DNA from: an uncultured Clostridia bacterium
GTDB lineage: Bacteria; Bacillota; Clostridia; Christensenellales; CAG-314
DNA length: 64,000 nt
NCBI GenBank assembly: GCA_947629985.1
Contig: CANRFV010000003.1
Span: forward strand, 62,001-126,000
Direction: 5' to 3'
Shown in pieces: positions 3,281-57,396 of the stretch. How positions within the stretch are numbered: position 1 is the stretch's first letter; each line of letters begins with the position of its first letter. The notes beneath the pieces were generated by a model, which was not told the DNA's origin, ran no database searches, and was given only the letters and a program-made list of their open reading frames with translations. The position numbers and the translations under genes are program-made.

Positions 3281-3294
3281 AAAAATCACAATAT

Positions 3295-3453
3295 AAGATA
3301 GCGCTCCACTTGCGTGACAGTCCGACGCATATTGTGCGCCGTCCCAGCATAGCCGCCTTTCAGACAAAACGACTATACTTCGGTTGCTTTCCCTTTACCG
3401 CCAAGCAGATGTCTGACTGCGTTGGTTTGTCATGAAAGCCACAACCTCTATCG
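3295..3453 (-). ncRNA. Lysine riboswitch (L box)
   Basis: Read on the minus strand, the segment contains the conserved L-box blocks in order: GATAGAGG, AGGGAAAGC, CCGAAG, CTGGG, GGACTGTCACG and GTGGAGCGCTATCTT. The match is to consensus blocks held in memory; covariance scoring was not run. The aptamer begins within about 10 nt of the predicted transcription start and is followed by two terminator stems and the binding-protein gene. High lysine is expected to terminate transcription of the transporter operon. Confidence 0.92.
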
Positions 3454-3465
3454 AATTATGGGTCA

Positions 3466-4669: not shown

Positions 4670-5319
4670 TAAAACCTTGACTTTGCCAATAGGAAAAATA
4701 ACACTTACGCGCTTGCGCGGAAATAACACCGTGAAGCACACCGCAAGCGGAAACAACTCAAATTCCGTCAACAAGCGACGACTTGCGCGGCACTACAGCG
4801 CGGCAAATATATTTAATAAATAAAATACAAAACAGCCAATCACATACCGAGATCGACTGTTTTATTTTAGTAATTATGCCGTCGATTGCGCACGCGTTAT
4901 CGCAACGAATTTATACGAGCAACAAACTGTCTCAACTAAACCCAACCTTGTAAGCACGCTGAGCGAGTGTATCCACTGCAAAATAATCTGCAATGAGTAT
5001 GCCGCACACAATCTTATTATTTGGGCGCGAGTGCTGTTGCAACTATAATCTGTCAACAAACAAGTTTTTAATTAAAATACAACCTTATATATACTCAGAG
5101 CGAGTGTGTTTACTGCAAAACAATCTGCAACGAGCGCACATTGTGCGCGAAGCGAAGCCTTTTTGCAGGGGATATGCGCGTGTTTTCCGTTTTGAATGCA
5201 ATTGCACGAGCGCTCTATCTACTATGCTCTGCGGCATACGAAGCGAAGCCTTTTTGCAGGGGATATGCGAGCGGTATAAGCGACCGACGCACGTGTGGTC
5301 GGCACCGCGTTCGGTCGGA
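4670..5319. repeat. Intergenic mosaic repeat block R1
   Basis: A noncoding stretch built from modules that recur elsewhere. It has remnants of the hairpin array with AATAACAC linkers (4702-4740), the AACAGCCAATC terminator-like hairpin (4831-4863), the CTGAGCGAGTGTATCCACTG module (4957-5005) and a GAAGCGAAGCCTTTTTGCAG module twice (5152 and 5240). It ends in GCACGTGTGGTCGG next to the stop codon at 5321. No gene is supported here. The 190 bases 4480-4669 before it show nothing recognisable. Confidence 0.8.
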
Positions 5320-5320
5320 A

Positions 5321-6244
5321 TTATAAATTACTTATTATTTCGCAAATCTGCCGCAAAGCCAAATTCGCCTCCGGTATGGGGTACAGCGGATATACATGAT
5401 TCATCCGCGCGCCCACGGTAAGCGTACAGCCGTCGTTGCCGGCAATACGATCGTAAAACTTTACCACATCGGGATACATTATTTCGTCCGTGCCCACAAA
5501 CAAATGCACGTTGCTCAGCGCGGCAAAGTTGTTGTAATACAGCGGACTTACAAAGTAACTGTGCATATCGTCGCCGTCCGCCCACAATTTGCCCCACACC
5601 TGCGTTGTGGATATTACCAACATTGCGTCGCTCTTTTGTATAGGCACCATATCGGGGTTGTCGGTTGCCAAATCAACCCAAGGAGACAATGCAACCACTG
5701 CGTCGGGGCGGCGCATACCGTGTTCGATGAGATATTGGTACAGCGACAACGCAAATCCGCCGCCTGCCGAATCGCCCATAAACACGATCTTGCCGTTACA
5801 ACTGTCCGCAATACGCGAATACATCGGCACTATTGCGTTGTACATATGCGTGTAGTTGTAAAACGGCGCCAGCGGATACAGCGGAAAAATTACCCTAACG
5901 CCCGCAGATTGCACCAATTTGTCTGCAAATTTGAAATGGAACGAACGGGGACGGTGAACGTATCCGCCGCCGTGGAAGTAAAACACGGTTGTGCCGACGG
6001 CGTTTTCGCCGTGCGGCGCGTCGGCTCGCTCGAAAGTGTACACATCGGTATTGCCGAAAGCGCTTTGCGTAACGCGAGAGCGAAATTTGCGCAAATCGGG
6101 CATAGCAAAGCGTTGCTCTCCCGCCGCTTTTTGTTTGGCAAATTGCGCTAACGCCTTGTCGGGACGGACGCTGTATTTACGTTTGGACGTCAGGCGCAAA
6201 ATTGCCGAAACGACGCGCGCCTTAAAAGATTTTTTACCTTTCAT
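5321..6244 (-). CDS. Alpha/beta hydrolase (HSL-type esterase)
   Basis: A 307-aa predicted carboxylesterase of the hormone-sensitive-lipase family. HGGGYVH (about residue 91) forms the oxyanion hole and GDSAGGG (about residue 157) carries the nucleophile serine. Later acidic and histidine residues (TDE near 255 and NHVYP near 285) fit the rest of the triad. There is no signal peptide, so it acts in the cytoplasm. The substrate is unknown. The stop codon abuts repeat block R1. Confidence 0.88.
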   Translation of the reverse strand: MKGKKSFKARVVSAILRLTSKRKYSVRPDKALAQFAKQKAAGEQRFAMPDLRKFRSRVTQSAFGNTDVYTFERADAPHGENAVGTTVFYFHGGGYVHRPRSFHFKFADKLVQSAGVRVIFPLYPLAPFYNYTHMYNAIVPMYSRIADSCNGKIVFMGDSAGGGFALSLYQYLIEHGMRRPDAVVALSPWVDLATDNPDMVPIQKSDAMLVISTTQVWGKLWADGDDMHSYFVSPLYYNNFAALSNVHLFVGTDEIMYPDVVKFYDRIAGNDGCTLTVGARMNHVYPLYPIPEANLALRQICEIISNL

Positions 6245-10351: not shown

Positions 10352-10360
10352 GGGTTTTGA

Positions 10361-10399
10361 AAAAAAATAAGCGGAACGTCTGAAAAATTGACGTTCCGC
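10361..10399 (-). terminator. Intrinsic terminator upstream of dinB
   Basis: Minus-strand stem GCGGAACGTC/GACGTTCCGC followed by TTATTTTTTTT. It would stop transcripts arriving through repeat block R2 before the dinB promoter. Confidence 0.75.
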
Positions 10400-10439
10400 A
10401 CGCATTTGGTCGGAAATTTCAACTAAACTCCGCAAACTA

Positions 10440-11122
10440 CGGACCTGCGCCCGCGCGACAGCGCGGCAAATATATGTAATAAATAAAATAAAAAACAGCC
10501 AATCTTATGCCGAGATTGACTGTTTTATTTTGAATAATTAGCCGTCGATTGCGCTTGCGTTAGCGCAACTAATTCATACAAGCAACAAGCAGTCCCAATT
10601 AAACCCAACCTTGTAATCCCACTGAGCGAGTGTATCCACTGCAAAATTATCTGCAACGAGTATGCCGCACCTAACAAGGTGCGGCATACATTTATTTGTT
10701 GAAAGTGCGTTAAGAATTAAACTAAATAGTTAATAAACCAACTAAATCAAATCAATAGTTGCTCCAATTAAACTACCGCAAACTACGGACCTGCGCCCGC
10801 GGCGCGACAGCGCACAAATTCATACGAGCAACAAGCAGTCCCAACTAAACCCAACCTTGTAATCCCGTTGAGCGAGTGTATCCACTGCAAAATAATCTGC
10901 AACGAGTATGCCGCATATAATCTTATTATTTGGGCGCGAGTGCTGTTGCAATTCAAAACAATCTGCAACAAGTGTGCCGCACCTAACAAGGTGCGGCACA
11001 CGAAGCGAAGCCGTTTTGAATGCAATTGCACGAGCGCTACCTCTACCATTCCCTGCGGTATACGAAGTGAAGCCTTTTTGCGGGGGATATGCGAGCGGTA
11101 TACGTGTGGTCGGTGTGTAAAT
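10440..11122. repeat. Intergenic mosaic repeat block R2
   Basis: Contains the CGCAAACTACGGACCTGCGC module twice (10431 and 10779), the AACAGCCAATC/GATTGACTGTT hairpin (10494-10524) and GCGAGTGTATCCACTGCAAA twice (10625 and 10873). Further modules are the ACTAAATAGTTAATA AT-rich module (10722-10760), GTGCCGCACC/GGTGCGGCAC (about 10976-11000) and the GAAGTGAAGCCTTTTTGCGG module. It ends in ACGTGTGGTCGG 9 nt from the stop codon at 11123. No protein gene is supported. Confidence 0.8.
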
Positions 11123-12769
11123 CTATTCGTCCACTTCCGCAAAGCAACTGCCGCCGATAAACTCGCGCAACAGCGAATTGCAGGGTACCCACTTGTCGTC
11201 CATATCTTTGAAATATTTAAGGAACTTGATAAGTCGGTTTGCCGTTATATAATGCGGACTGTCGGGCTTTACTTCCTGCAAGGCGGGCAGAGCGTATTTT
11301 TTGAGTACGCACAGTTCGTAGGTAAGCGCCGAATTGTAAACATAGTTGCACCCTTCCTGATAGGGGTAGATCCACTTAAATTCGCCGCGGCGCACCGACG
11401 GCCACATTTCCAACGTGCGTTCGGCGGATGCTCCGCGATATTTTTTGTCGCGCACGATACGGCGCAGCAAGCGGATATCCGTGTAACTGATGGGGTTGTG
11501 GTAGTCGATATTCATCTGGAACTGCGGAGCGATGTATATTTTGAACTTTTGGTGCTTGGGAATAGCGTACGACAGTTGGTCGTTAAGCGCGTGTATGCCT
11601 TCGATAATGATGGGCGTATCGGGTCCTATGCGCGTGGGAGTGCCTTTTTCGGCGCGTCCGAGTTCAAAGCGGTAATTGGGCAGTTCCGCTTCTTCGCCGT
11701 TGATAAGGGCGGACATATGTTCGTTGAACAATTCCACATCCAAAGATTCGATATGCTCGAAATCCTTTTCGCCGAATTCGTCCAAAGGTATATGTTCGCG
11801 ATCCTTGTAGTACATATCCAGCGAAATGCGCAACGGATTGATGCCGCGCGACATCAGTTCGACGCGCAAACGGTTGGAAAACGTGGTTTTGCCGCTGCTG
11901 GACGGCCCCGCTATGCAAATAAGGCGGGTGTTTTCGATGTCGGAAACGATACGCTCGCCCAAATCGTGCAACATATCGTTGTGCAACGTTTCGTTGATGT
12001 TGATAAAGTCGATATACGAATCTTCGCGAACGTGGTCGTTCAACTTGGAAATAATTTCGGAATTGCACAGTTTTGCCCACTTGTGAGCGCGTTTAAGCAC
12101 CTTGCTGAACGTCGGCTCGTCGTTGAATTCCGGAATTATGCCGCCCGCTTCGTAACGCGGATACTGCGCGATAAAGTGCCCGTCGTAACAAAACAGTTTG
12201 TATTTGTTGATGTACCCCGTGGACGGCACCATATAACCGTACATATAGTTGAGATAATCGCCGCAACGGTAAAAATGGCAGGTTTTTTCGGGACGGTACT
12301 GCAATGCGTCCGCCTTGTCGCGCTGACCTTGCTTTACAAAATAATCGTAAGCGTCGTCCTTGCTCATAGTTGTGCGTTCAAACGGCAAGTCGGCGTCCAC
12401 CAGACGTTGCATTTCCGCCAAAACTTCCGCAAGCATTTTTTTGTCCATAGGCAAGGCGTTGTCCACCATCGAAACCAACAGCGAACGCGATATTGCATAA
12501 CTGATCTTTATTTGATACTGCGGGTACAAATTGTGAAATGCCATTGCCAACAAGTAACGTAAACTCGTTTCGTATACCTTGATGGCGTCGACGTTGGTCA
12601 AGTCGAACAACTCGATGTCGGCGTCGAAATTGACTTCAAACGTCAGTTCGCGCAAGCGATTGTTTACCGTGGCTACAACATATTTTTTGTCGGAATTGTC
12701 AAACAAATCTATTATGCGCGCCTTGTTTTCCAACTGCAATTGTTTGCCTGCAATATTAACTTTGAACAT
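11123..12769 (-). CDS. Uridine kinase-like nucleoside kinase with ThrRS-like N-terminal region
   Basis: A 548-aa protein. The C-terminal part is a uridine kinase/phosphoribulokinase-type P-loop kinase, with GPSSSGKTTFSNRL (about residues 285-298) as Walker A and IEGIHALND as the following core strand. The N-terminal 270 residues have the layout of the TGS and second additional domains of threonyl-tRNA synthetase that are often fused to such kinases in Firmicutes. Expected reaction: phosphorylation of a nucleoside, probably uridine, with NTP. ATG 12769 follows AAAGGAG. Its own promoter lies upstream. Confidence 0.88.
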   Translation of the reverse strand: MFKVNIAGKQLQLENKARIIDLFDNSDKKYVVATVNNRLRELTFEVNFDADIELFDLTNVDAIKVYETSLRYLLAMAFHNLYPQYQIKISYAISRSLLVSMVDNALPMDKKMLAEVLAEMQRLVDADLPFERTTMSKDDAYDYFVKQGQRDKADALQYRPEKTCHFYRCGDYLNYMYGYMVPSTGYINKYKLFCYDGHFIAQYPRYEAGGIIPEFNDEPTFSKVLKRAHKWAKLCNSEIISKLNDHVREDSYIDFININETLHNDMLHDLGERIVSDIENTRLICIAGPSSSGKTTFSNRLRVELMSRGINPLRISLDMYYKDREHIPLDEFGEKDFEHIESLDVELFNEHMSALINGEEAELPNYRFELGRAEKGTPTRIGPDTPIIIEGIHALNDQLSYAIPKHQKFKIYIAPQFQMNIDYHNPISYTDIRLLRRIVRDKKYRGASAERTLEMWPSVRRGEFKWIYPYQEGCNYVYNSALTYELCVLKKYALPALQEVKPDSPHYITANRLIKFLKYFKDMDDKWVPCNSLLREFIGGSCFAEVDE

Positions 12770-19579: not shown

Positions 19580-20412
19580 ATGCCGACCTAAACAAAAATC
19601 TATGTGGCAATCTTGCTTTTCCGCCGTTGGCAAAAAAGTGAGATTGCTTCGCAGTGATATTTTGCCGTTTGGCAATTTTTGCCAACGGCAAAGTGTTATT
19701 TTTTCGCCTGCGGCGAAAAAGTGAGATTATTCGCTATCGCGAATAGTGAGATTGTTTGCTGCGCAAACAGTTGCGGCGTTGTTTATTTGAAACAATTTTA
19801 AGCAATAAAAAAAATTACTGTCGAGAAGTACTTCCCAACAATAATAATTTTCAAATAATGTCGACCTTAACTTTGCCGTCAGGCAAAATAACACTTTTCC
19901 GCCAACGGCGGAAAAATAACACTCGCCGTAGGCGAATATCACTGCCGCAGGCAATATCACTGCGCCGCAAGGCGCACGCTGAGCGAGTGTATCCACTGCA
20001 AAATAATCTGCAACGAGTATGCCGCACCTAATAAGGCGCGGCATACGGTTATTTATTCTAATAACGTTAAACATTAAACTAAATAGTTAATACATCAACT
20101 AAATCAAAGCAATAGTTGTTCAAATTAAACTACCGCAAACTACGGACCTGCGCCGAAGTTTGCGCCCTTGCGGGGGTTGCCGGGGACATGCGACACCCCG
20201 GCGAATGTCGGAATATGTCGCGCGTGCGTTCACGCGCAACTCCCAAGTCCGACTGCGTCGGCGCGATAGCGCGGCAATATAGGTAATCAGCAAAATAAAA
20301 AACAGCCAATCTTATGCCGAGATTGACTGTTTTATTTTAGTAATTATGCCGTCGATTGCGCTCGCGTTAGCGCAGCAGCAAGCAATCGACCGACGCACGT
20401 GTGGTCGGATAT
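19580..20412. repeat. Intergenic mosaic repeat block R3 (most complete copy)
   Basis: Modules in order: hairpin array with GTGAGATT/GTGATATT/GTGTTATT linkers (19640-19770); AT-rich centre with AATAATAATTTTCAAATAAT (19840-19860); inverted hairpin array with AATAACAC/AATATCAC linkers (19868-19975); GCGAGTGTATCCACTGCAAA and the GCCGCACC hairpin (19981-20045). Then come the ACTAAATAGTTAATA module (20077-20120), CGCAAACTACGGACCTGCGC, a GC-rich GGGGTTGCCGGGGAC segment (20156-20275), the AACAGCCAATC hairpin (20301-20332) and GTCGATTGCG-ending GTGGTCGG (20350-20408). It ends 4 nt from the clpC stop codon. No gene. Confidence 0.85.
20301..20332 (-). terminator. Repeat-borne terminator downstream of clpC
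   Basis: Minus-strand AACAGTCAATCT/AGATTGGCTGTT stem followed by TTTTATTTT, 81 nt after the clpC stop codon. The same hairpin occurs at 4831, 10494 and 43324, so the module appears to be a mobile terminator. Confidence 0.75.
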
Positions 20413-22878
20413 TTACTCGCGATCGAATATAATTTCCCCGTTGACGGAATCGACAAGAACGTTGTCGTTGCGGTTTATTTCGCCTGTAAGCATTTTTTCC
20501 GCCAACGCGTCCTCGATATTGCGCTGTATGGCGCGTTTGAGCGGACGCGCGCCGAAATTGCGATCGTAACCCGCTTGGGCAAGCGTAGCGATGGCCCTTT
20601 CGGTAAATTTGAGATTGATTGTGCCTTTGAGACGTTTGTACAGTCTGTAACACATCAATTTGGCTATCTGCACCGTTTCCCGCTCGCCGAGATAGTTGAA
20701 CACCACTATTTCGTCCAGACGGTTGAGAAATTCCGGACGGAAGAAACGTTTGAGCGCGCGTTCTACATTGCCGCGCATTACTTCGTTGTCGTCCCGCGAG
20801 CCGAAACCTACCGAATTGCCCGCGTTGTCCGTAATGCCGATATTGCTGGTAAGAATAATTACGGTGTTGCGGAAATCGACGGTTTTGCCGTGGCTGTCGG
20901 TAAGCCTGCCTTCGTCGAGAATTTGCAACAGCAAATTGAATACGTCGGGGTGGGCTTTTTCCACTTCATCAAACAGTACCACACTGTACGGACGGCGCAG
21001 CACCTTTTCGGTAAGGTAGCCGCTCTCTTCGTATCCGACGTATCCCGGCGGCGCGCCGATAAGTTTGGCAACGGACGTTTTGTCCATATATTCGGACATA
21101 TCTATGCGAATAACTTCGGTGTTGGAGCCGAACAGACACTGCGACAACGCCTTGGCAAGTTCGGTTTTGCCTACGCCCGTAGGTCCTACGAAAATAAAAC
21201 TGCCTATCGGACGGTTGGGGTCTTTAAGCCCCGCACGTTGACGTCTTACCGCACGCGACACAACGCGGACGGCTTCGTCTTGCCCTATTACGCGAGCGGA
21301 CAGTTCTTCTTCGAGATGAAGCAATTTGTCCTTTTCCGCGCGGGACAGTTCGGATACGGGCACGCCCGTCATTTGCGAAATAATGTCGCGCACATGCTCT
21401 GCCGTAAGCACTATCGGCGGCGGATCGCGATGTTGCGCGCTTGCCTGCAATTGTTTAATACGCATTTCGTCGTACTTGCGCTGCCAAAAATCGGCGTACT
21501 CCCAATTGCCGTTGTTGCGGTAAAACTCCGCCTTGTTACGGGCGTCTTCCGTTTGCAACGCCAATTCGTCGTACTGCGGTTGGCTGTTGGCAACGGAAAT
21601 TTTAAGTTTGCTGCACGCTTCGTCTATTACGTCGAAAGCCTTGTCGGGCAGACAGCGATCGGTTATATAGCGTACCGACAGTTGCACCGCTTCGCGTATG
21701 GCTTCGTCGCTGATGGTAATGCCGTGATGCTTTTCGTATTTGCCCTTGACGCCTTTTACTATTTGTACGGCAAGTTCGGGCGAAGGTTCGTCTACCGTTA
21801 TGGGTTGAAAACGGCGTTCCAACGCGGGGTCTTTTTCGATGTACAGCCGATATTCGCGCGTGGTGGTAGCGCCTATTATGTGCAATTCTCCGCGGGCAAG
21901 CGAAGGTTTGAGAATTTCGGCGGCGTCGATAGAGCCGTTGCCCGTTCCGCCTGCGCCCACCATGTTGTGGATCTCGTCTATAAACAAAATTATATCGCCT
22001 TGCTCGACGACCTGCCTGACTATTTCGGTAAGGCGTTCTTCGAAATCGCCGCGGTAACGAGTGCCCGCAAGCATAGACGCGATGTCTAACTGTATCAACT
22101 TTTTGTTCTGCAGTTCGGCAGGCACGCGCTTGTCGGCTATTGCCGCTGCCAATCCTTCGACGACGGCGGTTTTGCCCACGCCCGCTTCGCCCACCAATAC
22201 GGGATTGTTCTTGGTGCGGCGCGTAAGAGTTTGGATAAGGCGCTCGGTTTCGTTGTCTCTGCCTATTATCGGGTCGAATCCGCCCGCCATTGCCTTGGCG
22301 GTCATATCGTAGCCGTAACGCGCAAGCGGATCGCTTTCATCGTCCGCTACCGACGCGTCCGACGTTTTTTCGGCGGTTTTCAAGGCTGCGGCGGCAGGCG
22401 AATACGCACTCCCTTGCCTTTTGCCGTTGGTTTCGGCTAGCCATTCGATTACGGCCTTGCCGAAAACACGGTCTCCGCCCAAATCGGCGACTATGCGTCT
22501 GAACACCGCGTCGGTGGTATACTGACTGCCTTCAAGCATATAACTTATTTTGTCGTAGGCGTAATTGTTGTCCTTGTACGACAACAACGCCAACAACAGG
22601 TGCGTGCAAGTTATCTCTTCGCTGTGCTGAGCCTGCGCGTAAATGTTGGCGGCAACGTAAATGCGCTCGACACCTATGGGGTTGTCCAGCGTTTTGCTGC
22701 CGTCGGTAGACTTGACCCTGTCCAAGGTAAAGTGAAATTCGTTAAGATACTTAGTGGCGTCGTTGGGCACCTGCATCAACGCATACAAAAGGTGATGAGT
22801 TTGCACCGTGGTATGACGCCACTCGGCATAATCCGTTGCCGCGTCTATAACTTGAGTAAGTTGCTTTGATCTGTACAT
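20413..22878 (-). CDS. clpC: ClpC-type AAA+ chaperone/protease subunit
   Basis: An 821-aa Hsp100 unfoldase that feeds substrates to ClpP. It has an N-terminal double Clp_N repeat (residues 1 to about 145), a first AAA domain with Walker A GEAGVGKT (about 204) and a UVR-like middle region. The second AAA domain has GPTGVGKTELAKAL and Walker B VVLFDEVEKAHPD. The NSVGFG loop near residue 690 fits the ClpP-docking tripeptide. No mcsA, mcsB or ctsR neighbours are seen, unlike Bacillus. It has its own promoter and ends against repeat block R3. Confidence 0.94.
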   Translation of the reverse strand: MYRSKQLTQVIDAATDYAEWRHTTVQTHHLLYALMQVPNDATKYLNEFHFTLDRVKSTDGSKTLDNPIGVERIYVAANIYAQAQHSEEITCTHLLLALLSYKDNNYAYDKISYMLEGSQYTTDAVFRRIVADLGGDRVFGKAVIEWLAETNGKRQGSAYSPAAAALKTAEKTSDASVADDESDPLARYGYDMTAKAMAGGFDPIIGRDNETERLIQTLTRRTKNNPVLVGEAGVGKTAVVEGLAAAIADKRVPAELQNKKLIQLDIASMLAGTRYRGDFEERLTEIVRQVVEQGDIILFIDEIHNMVGAGGTGNGSIDAAEILKPSLARGELHIIGATTTREYRLYIEKDPALERRFQPITVDEPSPELAVQIVKGVKGKYEKHHGITISDEAIREAVQLSVRYITDRCLPDKAFDVIDEACSKLKISVANSQPQYDELALQTEDARNKAEFYRNNGNWEYADFWQRKYDEMRIKQLQASAQHRDPPPIVLTAEHVRDIISQMTGVPVSELSRAEKDKLLHLEEELSARVIGQDEAVRVVSRAVRRQRAGLKDPNRPIGSFIFVGPTGVGKTELAKALSQCLFGSNTEVIRIDMSEYMDKTSVAKLIGAPPGYVGYEESGYLTEKVLRRPYSVVLFDEVEKAHPDVFNLLLQILDEGRLTDSHGKTVDFRNTVIILTSNIGITDNAGNSVGFGSRDDNEVMRGNVERALKRFFRPEFLNRLDEIVVFNYLGERETVQIAKLMCYRLYKRLKGTINLKFTERAIATLAQAGYDRNFGARPLKRAIQRNIEDALAEKMLTGEINRNDNVLVDSVNGEIIFDRE

Positions 22879-22961: not shown

Positions 22962-25496
22962 TTATTTTGCGCGGCGGCGCAGTTTACGGCGGACAATTCG
23001 CGAAATTTCGTGAAATACCGTGGGCAACAGCGACAGCGCAAGCGCGGCGGCATACATGGGAGCGGTAAGCGCGGCAAGCCCGAAGATATTTTGCAAAGGC
23101 GGTATAAACGCGACGGCGCACACCATCGCCAACGACAACGCAAAACTTACCGCCATAAAAACCGTTATTCCCTGACGGAATATGCCGCTGCCGTTGCGCA
23201 ACTCCAATACGTAAAACAGTTGCGATACCGACAAGACCAAAAACGCCATTGTGCGAGCGCTTTGCGCGCCGTGGGACATACCGATTGCGTACCCGACAAG
23301 CGTAGCGACGGTAAACAGTATGCCTCCTGCCGCCACGCGCAGTCCGCCGCCGTTGCTGAAAAAGCCTTCGTTTTTGCTGTTGGGCGGACAACGCATTACG
23401 TCCCGTTCCTGCTTGTATATGCCCAACGCCAGCCCCGGCAAACCGTCGGTTACGAGATTTATCCACAGCAACTGCATTGCCGTAAGCGGCGATACGTTCC
23501 AAATCATCAGCGCCAAAAACACCGACAGCACTTCGCCTATGTTGCAAGTGAGTAAATACGTTACCGATTTTTTTATGTTTTGGTAAACGCTGCGCCCCAA
23601 CGACACCGCGTCTACGATTGTGGCAAAGTTGTCGTCGGTAAGTATGATGTCCGACGCGTCCTTGGCTACGTCGGTACCGCTGCCCATTGCGCAACCTATA
23701 TCGGCGGCTTTTAGCGCGGGAGCGTCGTTTACTCCGTCGCCCGTCATTGCCACAACCGCACCCTTGCGCTGCCAGGCGTTTACTATACGCAACTTGTCGG
23801 CAGGCGTTACACGCGCGTAAACGGCGATATTTTCCACCGCGTCGCACAGTTGCGCGTCGCTCCAAGAGTTGAGAGTTTCGCCGTCCACCGCCATATCGTT
23901 ACTGCCCATAATGCCCAAAACTTTGGCAATTTCGCGGGCGGTCTCGACGCTGTCGCCCGTGATCATAACGGGACGTATGCCCGCGCTTTTGCAAGTGGCA
24001 ACCGCTTGGTAAACTTCGTCGCGGGGTGGGTCGGCTATTGCAAACAACGCCGTTACGGTAAGGCGCTTTTCCAACGTTTGCGAGCGCGGAAAACCGTGTT
24101 CCGTCTTGCGCACGGCAAGCGCCAATACGCGCAGACCTTTTTGCGAATATACGCGGCTTGCCGACACGAAATCGGCATAGTTGTCGGCGTGCTTCATCGC
24201 TTGCAAACTGCCCTTTGTTACCGAATAGTAGTCGTTGCCGCACTTGACCACAACCGTCATCAATTTGCGGTTGCTGTCAAAGGGGATCTCGTACAGGCGC
24301 GTAACCGTCGGCACTTTGCGCGCAGCCGACAGCACGGCTATTTCGGTGGGGTCGCCCAACCATTCGCCGCGATCGTTGCGCACGGCGTCGCAACACCAGC
24401 AGTAGGCGTTCAGCGCAAAGTTATCGGCGGAAATATTTTCGGCGGATACGAACGCTTTGCCGTCGAAAATGCCCTTTAACGTCATTTTGTTTTGCGTAAG
24501 CGTGCCTGTCTTGTCCGAACAGATGACCGTTGCGCTGCCCAACGCTTCTACGGCGGTAAGGCGCTTTACCACGGCGTGTCTGCTTGCCATTTGCTCTATA
24601 CCCTTTGCCAACACTACCGTTACCACTGCGGGCAAGCCTTCGGGAATGGCGGCGACAGCCAACGACACGGACGTGAGCAACACGTCGATAAATATCGAAG
24701 TCAGCGTTTCGCCGGCGGTCATGCGCCGTATACCCTTGGCAAAACCTATCGCCAACACGGCAAGACACACGCCCAAACACACCAAACCGATAATTTTGGA
24801 CAGTTGTTTGAGCCTGTGCTGCAAAGGAGTAAGCGTCTGCTGCGAATTTGCCAACATGCCCGCTATCTTGCCCAACTCGGTGCGCATGCCCGTACACAGC
24901 ACCTGCGCGTAACACTTGCCCTTGGTAACCAAACTGCCGCCGAACACCTTGTTTGCGTCCTTGATTGCGTTTGACGAGACGGCTTGTTTGTCCACGGGGA
25001 CGCTTTCGCCCGTAAGCGCGGATTGATTTACAAACAGCCCTTCGGCGGCAAGCACAACGCAATCGGCGGTAATTATATCGCCCGATTCGAACATACAAAT
25101 ATCGCCGGGCACAACGAGACGACTGTCTAATAGAGTGATTTCGCCGTTGCGCACCACCTTGCTCTTGGGCGAAGTAAGGCGTTTGAGCGCCTGCAACGAC
25201 TTTTCCGCGCGATACTCTTGCACGGTGCCCAATACGGCGTTGGCTATTACTATGCCCAATATTATTATCGGCTCCAACATGTCGGACTTTTCCTTGGTGT
25301 AAAGCGCCATGCCGAACGACAGCGCCGCGGCGATGAGCAGTATAATTATCATAACGTCGCCGAACTGACGTATGAATTTGCGCCAAAAACCGTGTTTTTC
25401 GCTGCGCTCGGTTACGTTTTCGCCGTATTCGGCAAGCCGCGCTTGTGCTTCGCCGTCGCTGAGACCGCGTTTGAAGATATTATCGGTAGGTGTCAA
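22962..25496 (-). CDS. P-type ATPase, calcium-transporting type
   Basis: An 844-aa P2-type cation pump. Visible features in order: N-terminal cation ATPase domain, TGES actuator loop, the PEGLP motif in the fourth membrane helix, the phosphorylation site CSDKTGTLTQNKM, MTGDGVNDAPALKAADIG in the hinge, and about six C-terminal helices. This order and PEGLP fit bacterial SERCA/PMCA-like Ca2+ exporters; Na+ or Mn2+ transport cannot be excluded. The start is TTG 25496, because GGAGGGAC lies just upstream and the open frame before it looks noncoding. Confidence 0.9.
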   Translation of the reverse strand: MTPTDNIFKRGLSDGEAQARLAEYGENVTERSEKHGFWRKFIRQFGDVMIIILLIAAALSFGMALYTKEKSDMLEPIIILGIVIANAVLGTVQEYRAEKSLQALKRLTSPKSKVVRNGEITLLDSRLVVPGDICMFESGDIITADCVVLAAEGLFVNQSALTGESVPVDKQAVSSNAIKDANKVFGGSLVTKGKCYAQVLCTGMRTELGKIAGMLANSQQTLTPLQHRLKQLSKIIGLVCLGVCLAVLAIGFAKGIRRMTAGETLTSIFIDVLLTSVSLAVAAIPEGLPAVVTVVLAKGIEQMASRHAVVKRLTAVEALGSATVICSDKTGTLTQNKMTLKGIFDGKAFVSAENISADNFALNAYCWCCDAVRNDRGEWLGDPTEIAVLSAARKVPTVTRLYEIPFDSNRKLMTVVVKCGNDYYSVTKGSLQAMKHADNYADFVSASRVYSQKGLRVLALAVRKTEHGFPRSQTLEKRLTVTALFAIADPPRDEVYQAVATCKSAGIRPVMITGDSVETAREIAKVLGIMGSNDMAVDGETLNSWSDAQLCDAVENIAVYARVTPADKLRIVNAWQRKGAVVAMTGDGVNDAPALKAADIGCAMGSGTDVAKDASDIILTDDNFATIVDAVSLGRSVYQNIKKSVTYLLTCNIGEVLSVFLALMIWNVSPLTAMQLLWINLVTDGLPGLALGIYKQERDVMRCPPNSKNEGFFSNGGGLRVAAGGILFTVATLVGYAIGMSHGAQSARTMAFLVLSVSQLFYVLELRNGSGIFRQGITVFMAVSFALSLAMVCAVAFIPPLQNIFGLAALTAPMYAAALALSLLPTVFHEISRIVRRKLRRRAK

Positions 25497-25654
25497 TGTG
25501 TCCCTCCAATGTGTACTCAGGTAAATTATATGTACAAGCACCCGCAATTAGAATACCGCCCCTGCCCCTGAACGCAAAACCATACGCGCGCGACAAAAAG
25601 TTATGTTATTGCGACGCGCAAATAACAAGTTGTAATTATTTGCGGCGAAAAAGG

Positions 25655-26204
25655 CGTTCCAAACGGCGCAATAAACAAACAAAACAAAAAAAGCAACAGA
25701 AATGTAACAAAAAAGCAAAAAAAAACACATAAATACAACAAAAAACAACCACGAACAAACAAATAAAACAAAAAGCAAACAAAAATTAAACCAATGCGAC
25801 AAAAAACATATAAATACAGCAAAAAAACAACCAAAATAGAAAAAGCAAACAAGAAAAACGAACAAACAACAAAACAAAGCAACAAAAAGCACATACATAC
25901 AACAAAACTGTCGAGAACAACTAACTAAAACTGAAAAAGCAAAGAAATGCAACAAAAAGACAAGATAACACATAAATACAGCAAAAAAACAAACAAGAAA
26001 ACAAACGAAATAGAAAAAGCAAACAAGAAAAACGAACGAATAACAAGCCAATGCGGCAAAAAGCGCATACATACAACCGAAAACTGCCAAAAACAACTAA
26101 ATAGAAAAATCAAAAAAGGCGACAACGCATAAATACAGCAAAAAACAACCACCAACAAACAAATAAAACAAAAAGCAAACAAAAAATCAAACCAATGCAA
26201 TAAA
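25655..26204. repeat. A-rich degenerate tandem repeat region
   Basis: About 550 bases with almost no T on the plus strand, built of roughly six diverged units of 65-105 nt. Each contains a variant of ACATAAATACAACAAAA (near 25730, 25806, 25892, 25970, 26066, 26126), followed by AAACAAATAAAACAAAAAGC-like sequence. Minus-strand frames are open only because T is rare. I do not call a gene. Confidence 0.75.
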
Positions 26205-26243
26205 AAAGCAAAAAAAACGGCAATATCCGTAACGATATTGCCG
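26205..26243 (-). terminator. Intrinsic terminator of the MATE transporter gene
   Basis: Minus-strand CGGCAATATC/GATATTGCCG stem with a 6-nt loop, followed by TTTTTTTTGC. It lies 190 nt beyond the stop codon. Confidence 0.7.
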
Positions 26244-26433
26244 CATTGACGGTTAATTATTAAAGCGCGCGATATTGTGTGCGCCGCGCAACAAATGTGT
26301 TTGCGCTTGCCGTTTCGGCTTTCGCTGCGCGGCAAGCATTTATTGAACATTGCGGCAAAGCGCGGCGGCGCGTGCGCAACTGCAACGCGGCAACAAGCCC
26401 GAATGTGCGCGGAAACGCAAAATTACGCGCAAA

Positions 26434-40153: not shown

Positions 40154-40621
40154 TTACTTACCCGTAAACGGGTCCTTATACTCTTTAATGCTCTTCTTAT
40201 CTGCTATCTGGTCTTCTAATTCTTGGTTCCTTATGTAGTTCTGCACCGCCTTTTTGTTTAGACCTACGGTCGAAACGTAGTAACCTTCTGACCAGAAGTG
40301 TCTGTTGCCATAGTTGTACTTCAAATTCGCATGCTCGTCAAAGATCATTAAACTACTTTTACCTTTCAAATATCCCATAAAAGATGATACGGATATCTTC
40401 GGCGGTATCTTGACGAGCATGTGTATATGATCTGCCATCGCATGCGCTTCTACGATTTCTACTCCTTTGTATTCGCAAAGTCTCCTTATATATTTACCAA
40501 TATCCGACCTTAGCTTTGCATATATGGCTTTTCTACGATATTTTGGAGTAAATACGATATGATACTGGCAATTCCATTTGGTATGTGATAAACTACTGGT
40601 GTCATCATTTTTTGTTGACAT
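40154..40621 (-). CDS. tnpA: IS200-type Y1 transposase
   Basis: A 155-aa HUH single-strand transposase. It starts near KWNCQYHIVFTPKYRRK, the hallmark of the family. The HUH pair is in AMADHIHMLVKIPP, and the catalytic tyrosine in AVQNYIRNQ (about residue 131). Length is complete and the frame intact, so the element may be active. No TnpB is seen next to it. AAGGAGAG precedes the ATG. Confidence 0.95.
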   Translation of the reverse strand: MSTKNDDTSSLSHTKWNCQYHIVFTPKYRRKAIYAKLRSDIGKYIRRLCEYKGVEIVEAHAMADHIHMLVKIPPKISVSSFMGYLKGKSSLMIFDEHANLKYNYGNRHFWSEGYYVSTVGLNKKAVQNYIRNQELEDQIADKKSIKEYKDPFTGK

Positions 40622-42709: not shown

Positions 42710-43437
42710 CTCGAAAAATATTGCGACGGCACAGTGCCTGCGGCAGTGTTATTCTTCCACCGTTGGCGGAAGAGTGATATTGTTCGCATTCGCGAACAGT
42801 GTTATTTTGCCGTTTGGCAATTTTTGCCAACGGCAAAGTGTTATTTTTTCGCCTGCGGCGAAAAAGTGATAGTCGCCTATCGGCGAGTGAGATTGTTTGC
42901 TGCGCAAACAGTTGTGGCGTTGTTTAGTTAAAACAACTTTAAGCAATAAAAAAATATTGCCGAAAAATCAAATTTTCGACAATAATAATTTTCAAATAAT
43001 GTCAACCTTAACTTTGCCGTAAGGCAAAATAACACTTTTCCGCTGAAAGCGGAAAAATAACACTCGCCGTAGGCGAATAACACTTACGCGCTTGCGCGTA
43101 AATATCACTGTTCGCGTACGCGAACACAGCGCAAGCGGAAACAACTCAAATTCCGTCAACAAGCGGCGACCTGCGCGGCGCTTGTTGTCCTTGCGGGGGT
43201 TGCCGGGGACATGCGACACCCCGGCGAAGGTCGGAATATGCCGCGCAGGTGTCCTGCGCAACTCCCAAGTCCGACTGCGTCGGCGCGACAGCGCGGCAAA
43301 TATATGTAATAAATAAAATAAAAAACAGCCAACCTTATGCTGAGATTGACTGTTTTATTTTGGTAATTATGCCGTCGATTGCGCTCGCGTTAGCGCAGCA
43401 GCAAGCAATCGACCGACGCACGTGTGGTCGGATATCA
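42710..43437. repeat. Intergenic mosaic repeat block R4
   Basis: Has the forward hairpin array (42745-42915, linkers GTGATATT, GTGTTATT, GTGAGATT), the AT-rich centre (42945-42995), the inverted hairpin array (43010-43130, linkers AATAACAC and AATATCAC) and the GGGGTTGCCGGGGAC segment (43195-43300). It ends with the AACAGCCAACC hairpin (43324-43354) and GTCGATTGCG to GTGGTCGG (43374-43431), 6 nt from the stop at 43438. It lacks the GCGAGTGTATCCACTG and ACTAAATAGTTAATA modules present in R3. Confidence 0.85.
43324..43354 (-). terminator. Repeat-borne terminator downstream of the acidic protein gene
   Basis: Minus-strand AACAGTCAATCT pairs with the AGGTTGGCTGTT side and is followed by TTTTATTTT, 84 nt after the stop codon. 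Confidence 0.7.
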
Positions 43438-43959
43438 CTAAAAATCTTCGTCGTCTTTGTCGTCGGCGTCGTCATCTTTGTCGTCGTCCTTGTCGTCATC
43501 ATCGTCGGCAAAGTCGTCGTCGGCAAAATCGTCGAAATCGTCGGTAATGTCGTCGGGATAATCGTCCAACTCCATTTCGGTATTTTCTTCGTCCTCGAAG
43601 TCGTCGCCGAAATCTTCGTCGTTTTCCAACTCTTCCAACGGAATTATATCTTCTTCGTCGGAATCCTTGGCGTCATCATCGTCCAGATAGGTACGCCAAT
43701 CGTCGTTGTCGTCGTCCAACTCGTTGTTTTCGGCGCGTTTGTACTGCGCAAGGCAATTTTCGCACATCTTTTCGTCCATTCCGATGTACGCCGTACGGCA
43801 CACGGGGCACAATTTAAGCGGTTCGTCGTCGTCGATAATGTCGTCCAGCAACACTATGCGGCTGTCCAAGCCGAGTTCTGCCTTGCAGATATCGCACATA
43901 TCTTCCGATTCGAGAATGTAATTAAGGTCGCAACGCGGACATTTTTTGTATTTGCTCAT
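43438..43959 (-). CDS. Zinc-ribbon protein with very acidic tail
   Basis: A 173-aa soluble protein with two CxxC pairs near the N-terminus (CPRCD, CDIC) and another two (CPVC, CENC), which suggests two zinc ribbons. From about residue 82 the sequence is dominated by Asp and Glu and ends in almost pure D/K/E. Family unknown. Acidic tails of this kind appear on RNA polymerase delta subunits and nucleic-acid mimics, but no homology is claimed. AAGGTG precedes ATG 43959. Confidence 0.7.
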   Translation of the reverse strand: MSKYKKCPRCDLNYILESEDMCDICKAELGLDSRIVLLDDIIDDDEPLKLCPVCRTAYIGMDEKMCENCLAQYKRAENNELDDDNDDWRTYLDDDDAKDSDEEDIIPLEELENDEDFGDDFEDEENTEMELDDYPDDITDDFDDFADDDFADDDDDKDDDKDDDADDKDDEDF

Positions 43960-49635: not shown

Positions 49636-50916
49636 ATGATCGATGTAAATTTGATACGCAACGACGCGCAAGCGGTGCATGACAGATATCTCAAACGCGG
49701 CAAAGACATAGATTTTACCGAATTTTTGCAATTGGACGAGCAACGCAAGCGGCTTATTGCCGATACGGAAGCCAAAAAGGCGCAACGCAACCGCGTTTCG
49801 GCGGAAATTCCCAAACTTAAAAAGCAAGGGCTGGACGTAAGCGCCACCATCGCCGAAATGAAGACATTGGGCGACGAAATTGCCGCACAAGACGCCGAAT
49901 TGGACGACGTAAACGCGCGCATAAACGACTTTTTGCTGCGCTTGCCCAACCTTCCCGACGAAGATCTGCTTGCCGGCGGCAAAGAAAACAACCGCCCCAT
50001 TTACACTTTCGGACAAAAGCCGCAGTACGACTTTCAACCGAAAAATCACGTGGAATTGGCTAAAAGTTTGGGCTTGATAGATTACGAGCGCGGCGCAAAA
50101 CTTGCCGGCAACGGCAGTTGGATATACACCGATATGGGCGCGCGGTTGGAATGGGCTTTGCTTAATTACTTTATCGACAGCCACATACAAAGCGGTTACA
50201 CCTTTATGTTGCCGCCGTATATGCTTACCTACGAATGCGGACTTACCGCGGGACAATTTCCCAAATTTGAGGACGACGTATATCAATTGGCAAATGCCGA
50301 AGGCAAAAAATTTATGCTGCCCACCGCCGAGACCGCGCTGGTAAATTTGTTCCGCGACGAAATTTTGTCCGAAAGCGACCTGCCGAAAAAATACTTTGCG
50401 TACTCGGCATGTTTCCGCAGAGAAGCGGGCAGTTACCGCGCAGAAGAACGCGGAATGATACGCGGACATCAATTTAACAAAGTGGAATTGTTCCAATACA
50501 CCACGCCCGATCGCTCGGACGAAGCGTTTGAAGAAATGGTAAATATGGCGTGCAAACTTGTTGAAGGCTTGGGATTGCACTATCAACTGAGCAAACTTGC
50601 CGCGGGCGACTGCTCCGACAGCATGGCGCGCACATACGATATAGAAATTTATATTCCGTCAATGAATATTTACAAGGAAGTAAGTTCCGCATCCAACGCG
50701 CGCGATTACCAGGCACGCCGCGGAAATATGCGTTACAGACGCGCTTCCGACGGCAAACTTGCCTTTGTACACACGCTTAATGCAAGCGGACTTGCCACCA
50801 GCCGCGTGTTCCCCGCTATTTTGGAACAGTTCCAGACGGCGGACGGCTCGGTGCGCGTACCCGAAGCGTTGCGCAAATATCTGGGCGGAATGGATTTTAT
50901 TTGCCCTAAGAAATAG
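49636..50916 (+). CDS. serS: Seryl-tRNA synthetase
   Basis: A 426-aa class II synthetase charging tRNA-Ser. The N-terminal coiled-coil arm covers about residues 30-100. Motif 2 (CFRREAGSYRAEERGMIRGH, about 265) and motif 3 (SGLATSRVFPAILE, about 392) are intact. ATG 49636 has only a distant GAGG. The stop codon is followed after 2 nt by repeat block R5. Confidence 0.95.
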   Translation: MIDVNLIRNDAQAVHDRYLKRGKDIDFTEFLQLDEQRKRLIADTEAKKAQRNRVSAEIPKLKKQGLDVSATIAEMKTLGDEIAAQDAELDDVNARINDFLLRLPNLPDEDLLAGGKENNRPIYTFGQKPQYDFQPKNHVELAKSLGLIDYERGAKLAGNGSWIYTDMGARLEWALLNYFIDSHIQSGYTFMLPPYMLTYECGLTAGQFPKFEDDVYQLANAEGKKFMLPTAETALVNLFRDEILSESDLPKKYFAYSACFRREAGSYRAEERGMIRGHQFNKVELFQYTTPDRSDEAFEEMVNMACKLVEGLGLHYQLSKLAAGDCSDSMARTYDIEIYIPSMNIYKEVSSASNARDYQARRGNMRYRRASDGKLAFVHTLNASGLATSRVFPAILEQFQTADGSVRVPEALRKYLGGMDFICPKK

Positions 50917-50918
50917 AT

Positions 50919-52340
50919 CCGACCACACATATCCGACCACACGTGCGTCGGTCGATTGCTTGCTGCTGCGCTGACGCGAGCGCAATCGACACGTAGTGCG
51001 CATACGCGCCGACGCAGTCGGACTTGGGAGTTGCGCGTGAACGCACGCGCGGCATTGTTTAGACTTTCGGTGGGGAGCCGCCTGCCCCACCATCCCCCGC
51101 AAGGTCGCAAACTTCGGCACCGGTCCGTAGTTTGCGGAGTTTAATTTGAATAACTATTGATTTGATTTAGTTGGTTTAGTAAATATTTAGTTTAATGCTT
51201 AACGTATTTTCAATAAATAGTTGTATGCCGCACCTAACAGGGTGCGGCATACTTGTTGCAGATTGTTTTGCCGGAAACTCACTCGCTCTGAGTGTATATA
51301 AGGTTGAAATTTAATTAAAAACTCGTTAGTTGATAGTATGAATGCAACGGCACTCGCGCATAAAGAAAAAAAGATATAATGCGGCATACTCGTTGCAGAT
51401 TATTTTGCAGTGGATACACTCGCTCAGCGGGGTTACAAGGTTGAGTTTAATTTGGACTGCTTGTTGCTTGTATGAATTTGTGCGCTATCGCGCCGACGCA
51501 GGTCGATAGGGTACCCGCACAATTTGAGTTAGTAATGGGTACCCAATCGGTGCAATAGCACTGATTGGGAAAAGGGCAAGCACCCTGCAAGTGGCACCGA
51601 CTGCGTTATACGCGGTCGGTGCTTGCAAAAGGGTTGCTTGCCCGCTTGTGTGGGAGAAGGAGCGCCCTTGTGTCAGCGGAACCGAGTACGTTATGCGTGC
51701 TTGGTGCTGACAAACAAGCGGCGCGACGAGCGCGTGAACGCACGCGCGGCACTTATTTAGACCTTCGCCGGGGAGTCGCCTATTTAATGCGACGGGCGCT
51801 TTTTAATCCCACTGCGCCCTTACGTGGCTGCGGTCAACACCACACTGTGGTGATTGACTGATCGCGCCACGCCCCTCGCCCCCGCAAGGACGCAAACTTC
51901 GGCGCAGGTCCGCAGTTTGCGGTAGTTTAATTTGAACAACTATTGATTTGATTTAGTTGATGTATTAACTATTTAGTTTAATGCTTAATGTAATTTCAAC
52001 TAGTAATTGTGTGCCGCACCTAACAAGGTGCGGCACACTTGTTGCAGATTGTTTTGCCGTAAACACACTCGCTCAACGTGAAAATAAGGTAGTATTTTAA
52101 TTAAAAACTTGTTTGTTGATAGAATAAATGCAACAGCACTCGCGCATAAAGAAAAAAAGATATAATGCGGCACACTTGTTGCAGATTATTTTGCAGTGGA
52201 TACACTCGCTCAGGGTGCGCCTTGCGGCGCAAAAACAGATGAAAACGAAAAAAAATAAGGTTGTTTCGAGCGTGGAAAATCGATTTCCGCAACATCGAAA
52301 CAACCTTTAATTTTTAGTTAAACGTGTAAAATTGCGAGCG
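50919..52340. repeat. Intergenic mosaic repeat block R5 (largest)
   Basis: It starts with CCGACCACAC twice (50919 and 50933) right after the serS stop, then GTCGATTGCTTGCTGCTGCG and the ACTTGGGAGTTGCGCG segment. A pair of imperfect direct repeats of about 200 bp follows (51233-51440 and 52010-52215). Each carries the GTGCCGCACC-type hairpin and the GTGGATACACTCGCTCAG module in inverted orientation relative to R2. Between them lies a unique hairpin-rich core (51505-51860). No gene is supported. Confidence 0.8.
51505..51860. other. Unique chain of stable hairpins (candidate structured RNA)
   Basis: Consecutive inverted repeats: GGGTACCC twice (51509-51544); CCAATC-GTGC/GCAC-GATTGG (51543-51568); a long stem of about 26 bp with GGGCAAGCA/TGCTTGCCC at its base and GGCACCGAC/GTCGGTGC at its top (51574-51643); CTTG-GTCAGC/GCTGAC-CAAG (51667-51718); GTCAA-CACCAC/GTGGTG-TTGAC (51832-51858). 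No coding frame fits. Function unknown. Confidence 0.55.
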
Positions 52341-55650: not shown

Positions 55651-55677
55651 CAAAGAAAACATACCGATATGGTAAAT

Positions 55678-55766
55678 AAGGCGCGCTTCCTTTCGCAAGT
55701 TCTAACTTGATCCAAGTTCAAAGGGACTCTCTCAGCCGATTGCTCGGCACCCCCAGCCACCTAAGT
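55678..55766 (-). ncRNA. TPP riboswitch (THI box)
   Basis: On the minus strand the conserved blocks GGGGGTGCC, GCTGAGAG, CCCTTTGAAC, TTGGATCAAGTTAG and CTTGCGAAAGGAAG occur in the right order and spacing. High thiamine pyrophosphate would favour the downstream terminator and shut off thiamine uptake. Confidence 0.93.
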
Positions 55767-55804: not shown

Positions 55805-56461
55805 AATGATGTTGTTCGCTTGCGCGAAATGCTGCGCAGTTATATTTTGCTGTAAGGCAAATGTTTTGCCTTACAGCAAAGTGAGATTTTTCCGCTTTCA
55901 GCGGAAAAGTGAGATTATTCGCTATCGCGAATAGTGATATTTTTCCGTCTGCGACGGAAAAGTGAGATTGTTTGCTGGGCAAACAGTTGCGGAACCGTTA
56001 ATTGAACCACTTGTTGCAATAAAAAAATAATTGCCGAAGGATAATATCTTTCGGCAATCAAAATTTCAAATAAAGTAGGAATTTGAGTGAGCGTAGCGCG
56101 ATAGCGCACAAATTCATACAAGCAACAAGTAGTCCAAATTAAACCCAACCTTGTAATCCCGCTGAGCGAGTGTATCCACTGCAAAATAATCTGCAACGAG
56201 TATGCCGCATACAATCTTATTATTTGGGCGCGAGTGCTGTTACAATTCAAAACAATCTGCAACAAGCGTGCCGCATCTAACAAGGTGCGGCACACGAAGT
56301 GAAGCCGTTTTGCAGTGAACATGCGAGCGATATCCTTTTTGAGCGCGATCGCACGAGCGGTCTCCGTTTTGAATGCAATTGCACGAGCGCTACCACATTT
56401 TTATTGCGGCATACGAAGCGAAGCCTTTTTGCAGGGGATATGCGAGCGGTATGGTGGTCGG
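55805..56461. repeat. Intergenic mosaic repeat block R7
   Basis: Hairpin array with GTGAGATT/GTGATATT linkers (55815-55990), AT-rich centre, the GCACAAATTCATACAAGCAA and GCGAGTGTATCCACTGCAAA modules (56107-56190), and the GTGCCGCATC/GGTGCGGCAC hairpin (56267-56295). It ends with a GAAGCGAAGCCTTTTTGCAG module (56416) and GGTGGTCGG (56453-56461), 8 nt from the stop at 56470. No gene. Confidence 0.8.
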
Positions 56462-56469
56462 AATCGGGC

Positions 56470-57396
56470 TCAAAATGCCCACGGCAGCACCAGCGCCAGA
56501 CCGAAGCCCGCCGACAAAGATACAAAGTTGGCAACAAGCGAGTACACAAAACATTTCCACACGGGCACGCCGTCCTTGCGCAATACGATACAGTACGTTG
56601 CCGCTTCCACAAGGAAAACCAGCAATTCCAACGGCAGGTATACAAACAGTACCATTATTATGCCCTGAAAATAATCTATCAGGTTTAGCCCTATGTTGAG
56701 CAAAAGTTGCGTTACTACGTTTGTTACGGTTATTGTTACAAGCGATTTGCGACTTGTGAGCCTGAACGCCAACGCCAACAGCAACTCGATGACAACCGTT
56801 GCCGCAAGGCGCACCACAAGCCCGACAATCTCGCCAAAGTAATCGTACGAAATGCGCACTTGTACGGGTAGCGCGCCGTCGCCCGTCTGCAACCATTCGG
56901 ACAAATCTACGGCAAAGTAACTGTTGAGCGCGTAGGTTTTGCACACATCGCTTTCGGCAAAAGTTTGCGTATCGACAAAGTAAAGCAGTATTTTGAAATT
57001 GTCCGGAGGATGGTAACCCCACTCGATCTGCCCGTCGCCTTCCAACGTCCACCACCGTTGCACAAAGTAGTAGCCGTCCTTGTCGGCGTAGTTGACAAAC
57101 AGTTGCCAACAGTATTCGGCGTACTGCGCGTCGGTAAATTGCGACATATCCACTTTGCTGTCGGGGTCGGATGGGTCGTACCACTGCCAAGGTCCGCTGT
57201 ATTTGTCTTCCGAAAGCAAGGTTACTATTACGCCGCCTTGGGGCACACCGTCAAACGTTATTGTGGTATTGGGGTGCGGACCCATATCGGCGTAGGCGGG
57301 CATTGCGCCCAAAACCGCCGCGACAAGCGCCGTTACAATTGCCGCGGCAAGTATAAGTTTGCTTAAATTGTTGCGACGAAAGCGCATATCTGTCAT
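56470..57396 (-). CDS. Secreted/membrane protein of unknown function
   Basis: A 308-aa protein with an N-terminal signal sequence (about residues 12-36, ending AYADMG), an extracellular part of ~140 residues rich in Trp, Tyr and Asp, and four helices in the C-terminal half. No family is recognised. The ATG lies 3 nt after the vWA lipoprotein stop, and the SD (AGGGAG) is inside that gene, so the two are co-translated and probably act together at the cell surface. Confidence 0.7.
   Translation of the reverse strand: MTDMRFRRNNLSKLILAAAIVTALVAAVLGAMPAYADMGPHPNTTITFDGVPQGGVIVTLLSEDKYSGPWQWYDPSDPDSKVDMSQFTDAQYAEYCWQLFVNYADKDGYYFVQRWWTLEGDGQIEWGYHPPDNFKILLYFVDTQTFAESDVCKTYALNSYFAVDLSEWLQTGDGALPVQVRISYDYFGEIVGLVVRLAATVVIELLLALAFRLTSRKSLVTITVTNVVTQLLLNIGLNLIDYFQGIIMVLFVYLPLELLVFLVEAATYCIVLRKDGVPVWKCFVYSLVANFVSLSAGFGLALVLPWAF

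Follow-up and report, generated by a model that had tools for sequence, protein, structure and literature searches.

Six repeat blocks lie between genes in the 64,000-nt window (the whole stretch of DNA analyzed here), and the CCGACC end is directed away from the adjoining gene in all six, as had been claimed. The blocks and their parts are listed below; the far limit of every block is approximate, and gene names, here and throughout, come from our own reading of the proteins.

4737..5302, minus strand: block R1, whose CCGACCACACGTG end (5290-5302) is separated from the stop codon by 18 nt
5306..5318, minus strand: degenerate end unit CCGACCGAACGCG of block R1, first base 2 nt from the stop codon of the minus-strand gene 5321-6103
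10453..11113, minus strand: block R2, with its CCGACCACACGTA end 9 nt past the stop codon of the minus-strand gene 11123-12769
10360..10413, minus strand: far side of block R2, where CCGACCAAATGCG (10401-10413) leads into a terminator-like hairpin with a T-run (10360-10399, by eye)
19650..20408, minus strand: block R3, with its CCGACCACACGTG end at 20396-20408, 4 nt past the stop codon of the gene 20413-22878, which we take to be ClpC-like
20134..20253, minus strand: core module of block R3, matching covariance model R1 at 93.7 bits
42730..43431, minus strand: block R4, with its end at 43419-43431, 6 nt past the stop codon of the gene 43438-43959
43157-43275, minus strand: core of block R4, matching covariance model R1
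50919..52231, plus strand: block R5
51017-51136 and 51705-51921, plus strand: two core matches to covariance model R1 in block R5
55860..56461, minus strand: block R7, with its short end CCGACCACC starting from 56461, 8 nt past the stop codon of the gene 56470-57396

Block R5 carries two tandem end units (50919 and 50933), located 2 and 16 nt past the stop codon of the serS-like gene 49636-50916. The end-to-stop distances proposed earlier were exact for R2 (9 nt), R3 (4), R4 (6), R5 (2), and R7 (8), but not for R1, where the GTGGTCGG copy at 5290-5302 (minus strand) lies 18 nt, not 2 nt, from the stop at 5321. The window also contains lysine (3291-3458) and TPP (55671-55764) riboswitches, as well as A-rich imperfect repeats with 11-nt phasing (25600-26350) beside the gene 22962-25496.

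The original prediction held that the end always abuts a stop codon in fixed polarity, and named a genome-wide list of distances and orientations as a check. This list was compiled over approximately 513 kb of the 2.37-Mb, 157-contig draft genome (G000), comprising the window and stretches around repeat clusters that were picked by repeat content rather than by gene distance, with genes taken from our own codon-usage caller, of which single calls can err. With tandem units collapsed, 28 of 42 non-coding CCGACCA ends began 0-11 nt past a stop codon and were directed away from the gene, compared with 3.6% (approximately 1.5 of 42) for random points and orientations in 234 repeat-free gaps (≤600 nt). 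A stop codon was on the upstream side in 37 of the 42. The other ends were located at 12-40 nt (4, three of which had a degenerate unit nearer the stop, by eye) or beyond 40 nt (5), faced a START (3), or had no called neighbor (2). The 42 ends include a few apparent chance or far-side copies and omit ORF-internal calls; at one of these, C2:2496/2510, the ORF runs on into the element. Fixed polarity and abutment therefore hold beyond the window for most ends, but the word "always" fails at the genome level. The exact 13-mer occurred in 20 copies in the 2.37-Mb draft, all within the sampled stretches (reversed control, 0), while some weak matches and at least four structure matches (C2:227826, C5:62804, and two on C14) were situated outside the sample.

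A similar placement was observed across the genus. Among 30 loci chosen solely by the score of structure model R1, 24 were readable, and the end lay 0-9 nt past a stop codon in 13 of these; the remainder were at 54-142 nt (6), on the START side (4, one at 8 nt), or at a locus edge (1). A survey of motif sites in G009 (20/20 sites), G008 (11/11), and G007 (8/11), plus two R1-match loci (43 rows), placed 13 ends at 0-6 nt and 3 at more than 6 nt past a stop, 6 at 7-20 nt and 8 at more than 20 nt from the start codon of a gene (the former pointing away), 3 without a neighbor, and 10 within genes. Eleven copies lay 54-187 nt from a stop, behind a terminator or another hairpin element; six came from G014, G015, G020, G021, and G023, and five from Lapin bin65, which is apparently the same as G015.

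The rule is nevertheless broader than a stop-codon rule, because the end also enters last codons, abuts Shine-Dalgarno sequences, or follows terminators. The same CCGACC end adjoins the Shine-Dalgarno sequence of a gene pointing away at L249, L259, L263, L267, and L312 (G008), and a lone end does so at L321 (G009). In these copies, the element stands in antisense orientation ahead of a gene, an arrangement left unexplained by a stop-codon function. The end lies behind terminators at L178 and L199, and behind another hairpin element at L176, L197, L198, L203, and several Lapin loci. Among 23 same-strand in-gene hits (all loci), 11 were no more than 70 nt from the end of the ORF. Four of these sit 17 nt before it, with an ORF tail of PTKR[AG]* (L241, L248, L256, and L268), and the ORF of L251 reads into the element with the tail RTNARGLG*, indicating that an end entering the last codons can provide the stop codon. 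Hairpin families of unrelated sequence were also found 0-20 nt past a stop in a small opportunistic sample (F2, 5/10; F3, 5/6, the sixth place being at a locus edge; F4, 1/4; F5, 2/5). One CCGACCA match in G008 (L260) is apparently the 3′ end of a tRNA with its CCA (by eye), probably a coincidence.

Behind the end, the element takes two forms, A (CCGACCACACGTGCGTCGG..) and B (CCGACCAAACGCGTGCGGAC..GTCCGCACGGTCGG), which we read as homologous. In both, the next parts are a hairpin, then ..CGCCGGGG..CCCCGGC, then a CCCCCGCAAGGG hairpin, and a final hairpin; in some copies, the end leads into a different module (CGCTCGCATATCC..). Covariance model R1, built from a hand-set structure and 8 B-like sequences, yielded 84 matches (81 distinct) over 95 self-chosen sources. 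In their alignment, 96.6% of cells were paired, 22 of 25 pairs were altered on both sides, and the cells altered on both sides numbered 551, compared with 164 in shuffles. The covariation score was 0.673, against 0.170 in shuffled and 0.042-0.093 in slid alignments, with the alignment fitted to the model, which favors the score. The CCGACC end is part of a structured element with a strongly covarying core of 25 bp. This conserved core consists of four helices (P2, P3, a small tetraloop hairpin, and P5) and is 119 positions long, with further sequence in addition. A further helix, P1, starts at the CCGACC end (by eye) and stands outside the R1 model and the covariation figures, and the 3′ end of the element lies near ..TTGAAA (by eye). 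One block folded at z = -5.1. The GU and AC counts in P3 and P5 (18 vs 9) gave no clear sign of RNA over single-stranded DNA, and two blocks searched against Rfam gave nothing above the cut-off.

Two neighboring structures accompany the element. Hairpin arrays separated by GTGTTATT/GTGAGATT are present in the window (19652-19930, 42745-43071, and 55880-55976) and at L055:8233-8320, and the L055 array scored 35 bits against Gut-1 RNA (RF01706), below the gathering score of 50; this likeness concerns the neighboring module and not the element with the CCGACC end. Another structured module, CGCTCGYRYATCCCC..GGCTTCG..TTGCAGATTNTTTTG..GGATACACTCGCT, was observed in the window (51360-51440 and 10622-10927) and at L115 of G018, where it begins directly at the stop codon; it had 56 matches at E ≤ 1 in G000, the weakest being at chance level.

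Matches to R1 were found in 21 of the 25 genomes of the genus, with the highest numbers in G020 (46), G000 (33), G023 (29), G021 (28), and G015 (26), and none in G001, G003, G010, and G017. Under stricter filters, 8 of 199 genomes sampled from the order matched, all of this genus, with no match in the other 101 genera of the sample. A 19-mer search of viral contigs gave 0 matches, and blastn with 240 bp gave none in plasmids and phages. In named genomes, the 19-mer search returned 25 stretches, of which 9 were in MAG Lapin-002 bin65 and 16 in Microbacterium and other distant taxa; the latter are taken as chance (L080, L090, and L097 fall inside genes).

The suggestion that these elements are mobile 3′ untranslated regions was supported as to mobility by this wide occurrence in the genus, by unoccupied orthologous sites, and by near-identical ends (58-68 bp, 95-100% identical) at 16 places in G000, while the 3′ untranslated location is supported by position only. 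Comparison of orthologous loci lacking the element, also put forward in the original prediction, indicated insertion after the stop codon. Five copies located 0-4 nt past the stop (L250, L252, L253, and L244 in G009; L265 in G008) correspond to an orthologous site that is empty in one or more of G006, G008, and G009, with unoccupied spacers of approximately 9-90 nt (both by eye), and the cores of the four G009 copies are 93-97.5% identical (L179 being L252, and L200 being L244). At L254 in G008, the element comes after the stop, and beyond it stand a second CCGACCAAAC and then a terminator-like hairpin; in G009, the orthologous L243 shows a lone CCGACCAAACG with a hairpin of that kind. The element of L262 is present in G008 and G009 and absent from G006. 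Copies occupy different gene ends in different species, and some relatives carry none there: motif and core were absent from 39 of 40 serS, uvrA, and plsX 3′ ends of relatives (200 nt checked), the exception being plsX of G023, and 25 of the 40 had a five-T run within 120 nt. The ends of degV-like genes (G000 C6:13599, G007 L268, and G015:C67:140-152) are occupied in several species at slightly shifted positions, as are those of plsX-like genes (G000 C5:41818 and G023 L173). This repeated occupation may reflect inheritance with turnover, or hot spots.

Recognition of terminators, which had been suggested as a basis for the placement, was not supported: five or more U follow the hairpin in just 20 of 84 copies, the same end is present at Shine-Dalgarno sites and inside last codons, and at L252, L253, and L254 a terminator-like hairpin persists on the far side (by eye). 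A terminator of the element's own was rejected as the cause of placement, since the U run after P2 (20 of the 84 R1 matches, 81 distinct) is not conserved. The suggested RNA-based mobility was not supported either, as G000 had no RVT_1 match; reverse transcription was rejected on this ground, with 4 of 25 genus genomes having one. No intron family appeared in the Rfam scans, which argues against a group II (IIC) intron. Duplication of the gene end was likewise rejected as a general mark: when the last 45 nt of each gene were matched to the intergenic DNA behind it, five of 601 stops scored ≥26 (controls, 7 of 3,002), namely two long repeats elsewhere, L251, and two kinase-like gene ends in G003 and G010. 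Among near/far pairs of CCGACC, the gene end was repeated before the far copy in 2 of 10 (L207 and L200). At the kinase-like gene ends (L125 in G003 and L126 in G010), the last ~26 nt are repeated 43-117 nt downstream.

Our data point, with a probability of roughly 0.55, to non-autonomous mobile elements of this genus that are placed or retained at the edges of coding sequences and probably act there in cis. The CCGACC end faces the coding sequence and usually touches its 3′ limit, at positions ranging from within the last codons to approximately +11 nt of the stop. In the proposed scenario, some activity would place, or some process would retain, structured DNA at these edges in one polarity. 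P1 would then begin within the 15-nt zone reported for ribosome-stalling, stop-proximal REP hairpins of E. coli, and by this analogy the element probably tunes the expression of the upstream gene. Convergent pairs may have the motif at both ends because each gene received its own copy, and the large mosaics of G000 may have arisen by nested insertions and deletions. No mobiliser was found. The position at gene ends can be read in two ways, as placement at insertion or as retention by selection. The similar copies at 0-4 nt favor the former, whereas the use of several kinds of functional edge, also by unrelated families, suggests a host-level cause, which could be selection.

A possible if doubtful alternative is that insertion is random and that copies survive at coding edges because they are harmless there, or because intervening DNA was deleted until selection stopped it. 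Such a process would account for the variety of edges used (stop, Shine-Dalgarno, terminator, and other hairpins), for a boundary reaching even into last codons, and for the contact of unrelated families (F2, 5/10; F3, 5/6) with stops, which points to a host-level cause. It does not readily explain why L250, L252, L253, L244, and L265 all lie at 0-4 nt although spacers of ~9-90 nt were available, four of these five being the G009 copies with 93-97.5% identical cores, and the terminator-like hairpin still present beyond the element in L252 and L253 suggests that little was eaten by deletion. That a genus-wide integration activity, common to several unrelated repeat families, recognizes the edges of translated sequence (stop/Shine-Dalgarno) and inserts in one polarity appears rather unlikely. 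We regard as similarly improbable a REP/REPIN or IS200/IS605-type system, in which a Y1 (HUH) transposase moves hairpin-ended single-stranded DNA. Such a system would fit the dissimilar ends, the lack of a consistent duplication, the hairpins close to either end, the constant orientation, and the Y1_Tnp matches (12 of 25 genomes, with 4 in G000), but no conserved target tetranucleotide precedes the end (90 listed ends, by eye), and G004, G005, G007, G008, and G009, which carry 8-15 R1 matches, had no Y1 match, the drafts without one including incomplete ones (G007, 76%; G009, 89% complete). As a candidate mobiliser, the Y1 transposase was disfavored, since its presence does not track R1 copy number (by eye). 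An IS200-type Y1 transposase gene lies at 40223-40579 of the window, with no CCGACCA end in the surrounding 1.2 kb.

It is highly improbable that the end is a native 3′ untranslated motif, such as a processing signal, rather than part of a mobile element. Lone CCGACCAAACG copies between the stop and a terminator-like hairpin (L234 and L243), or directly past the stop (L269 and, by eye, L239), would suit such a motif, but its absence from 39 of the 40 serS, uvrA, and plsX ends and its rarity in genomes without R1 (G017, 0; G001, 1; G003, 2; G010, 7; up to 42 in R1-rich genomes) argue against it. Given these low counts in element-free genomes, we read the lone copies as probable remnants; they may also be the reverse, that is, the target.

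Placement close to stop codons is already known from REPs, and what is new here is a large, non-REP family in uncultured gut-type Clostridia. REPs are 20-40 bp long with a GTAG or CGTC end. According to PMC3733652, most copies in convergent pairs lie <20 bp from both ORF 3′ ends in the genomes shown, and elsewhere they sit near the end of the upstream ORF and at a variable distance on the downstream side, with GTAG termini often supplying the TAG stop. REPs within 15 nt of a stop are reported to stall ribosomes (as cited in PMC12306157), and of the 4,072 REPs of E. coli, a recent tool described there places only 446 at ≤15 nt from a stop. Terminators very near a stop are described as repressed by the ribosome (PMC4824070). 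Our element shares with the GTAG/CGTC families its structured, multi-copy, and intergenic nature and its proximity to ORF 3′ ends, but differs in its 119-position core with additional sequence and in its 5′ end, which is CCGACCAAACG or a close variant and not GTAG/CGTC. As to REP/RAYT systems, Y1 matches occur in 12 of 25 genomes, and none was found in five carriers, some of them incomplete drafts. IS200/IS605 elements are described as having a target tetranucleotide conserved at the left end (PMC6006769), whereas variable bases precede CCGACC.

Classical MITEs have terminal inverted repeats, in contrast to the CCGACC and ..TTGAAA ends observed here (by eye). EFAR elements of Enterococcus faecalis are miniature insertions of mosaic build, 42-650 bp long, that enter the genome at a stem-loop and remove most of it. 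In our case, a terminator-like hairpin is kept beyond the element in L252, L253, and L254, and none was seen at L265 (by eye). PMC3733652 names EFAR as a MITE. By their description in PMC10969869, BOX, RUP, and SPRITE of Streptococcus pneumoniae are likewise clustered, non-autonomous structured repeats, some nested and some terminator-like; the passages on them there do not mention stop-edge polarity. The element was not found in the literature searched, from which subscription papers were mostly absent.

If the placement arises at insertion, integration can be targeted to translation boundaries, a mode that to our knowledge would be new. If selection is responsible, they offer a natural experiment on the sequence tolerated after a stop codon, covering numerous genes from 21 genomes, each of a different species, with and without the same hairpins at 0-11 nt and including stop-supplying copies. 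Either way, a much larger element joins the structured repeats known, from REPs, to lie close against stop codons. The G000 genome measures 2.37 Mb, compared with 1.2-1.7 Mb within the genus, and has long repeat mosaics between its genes.
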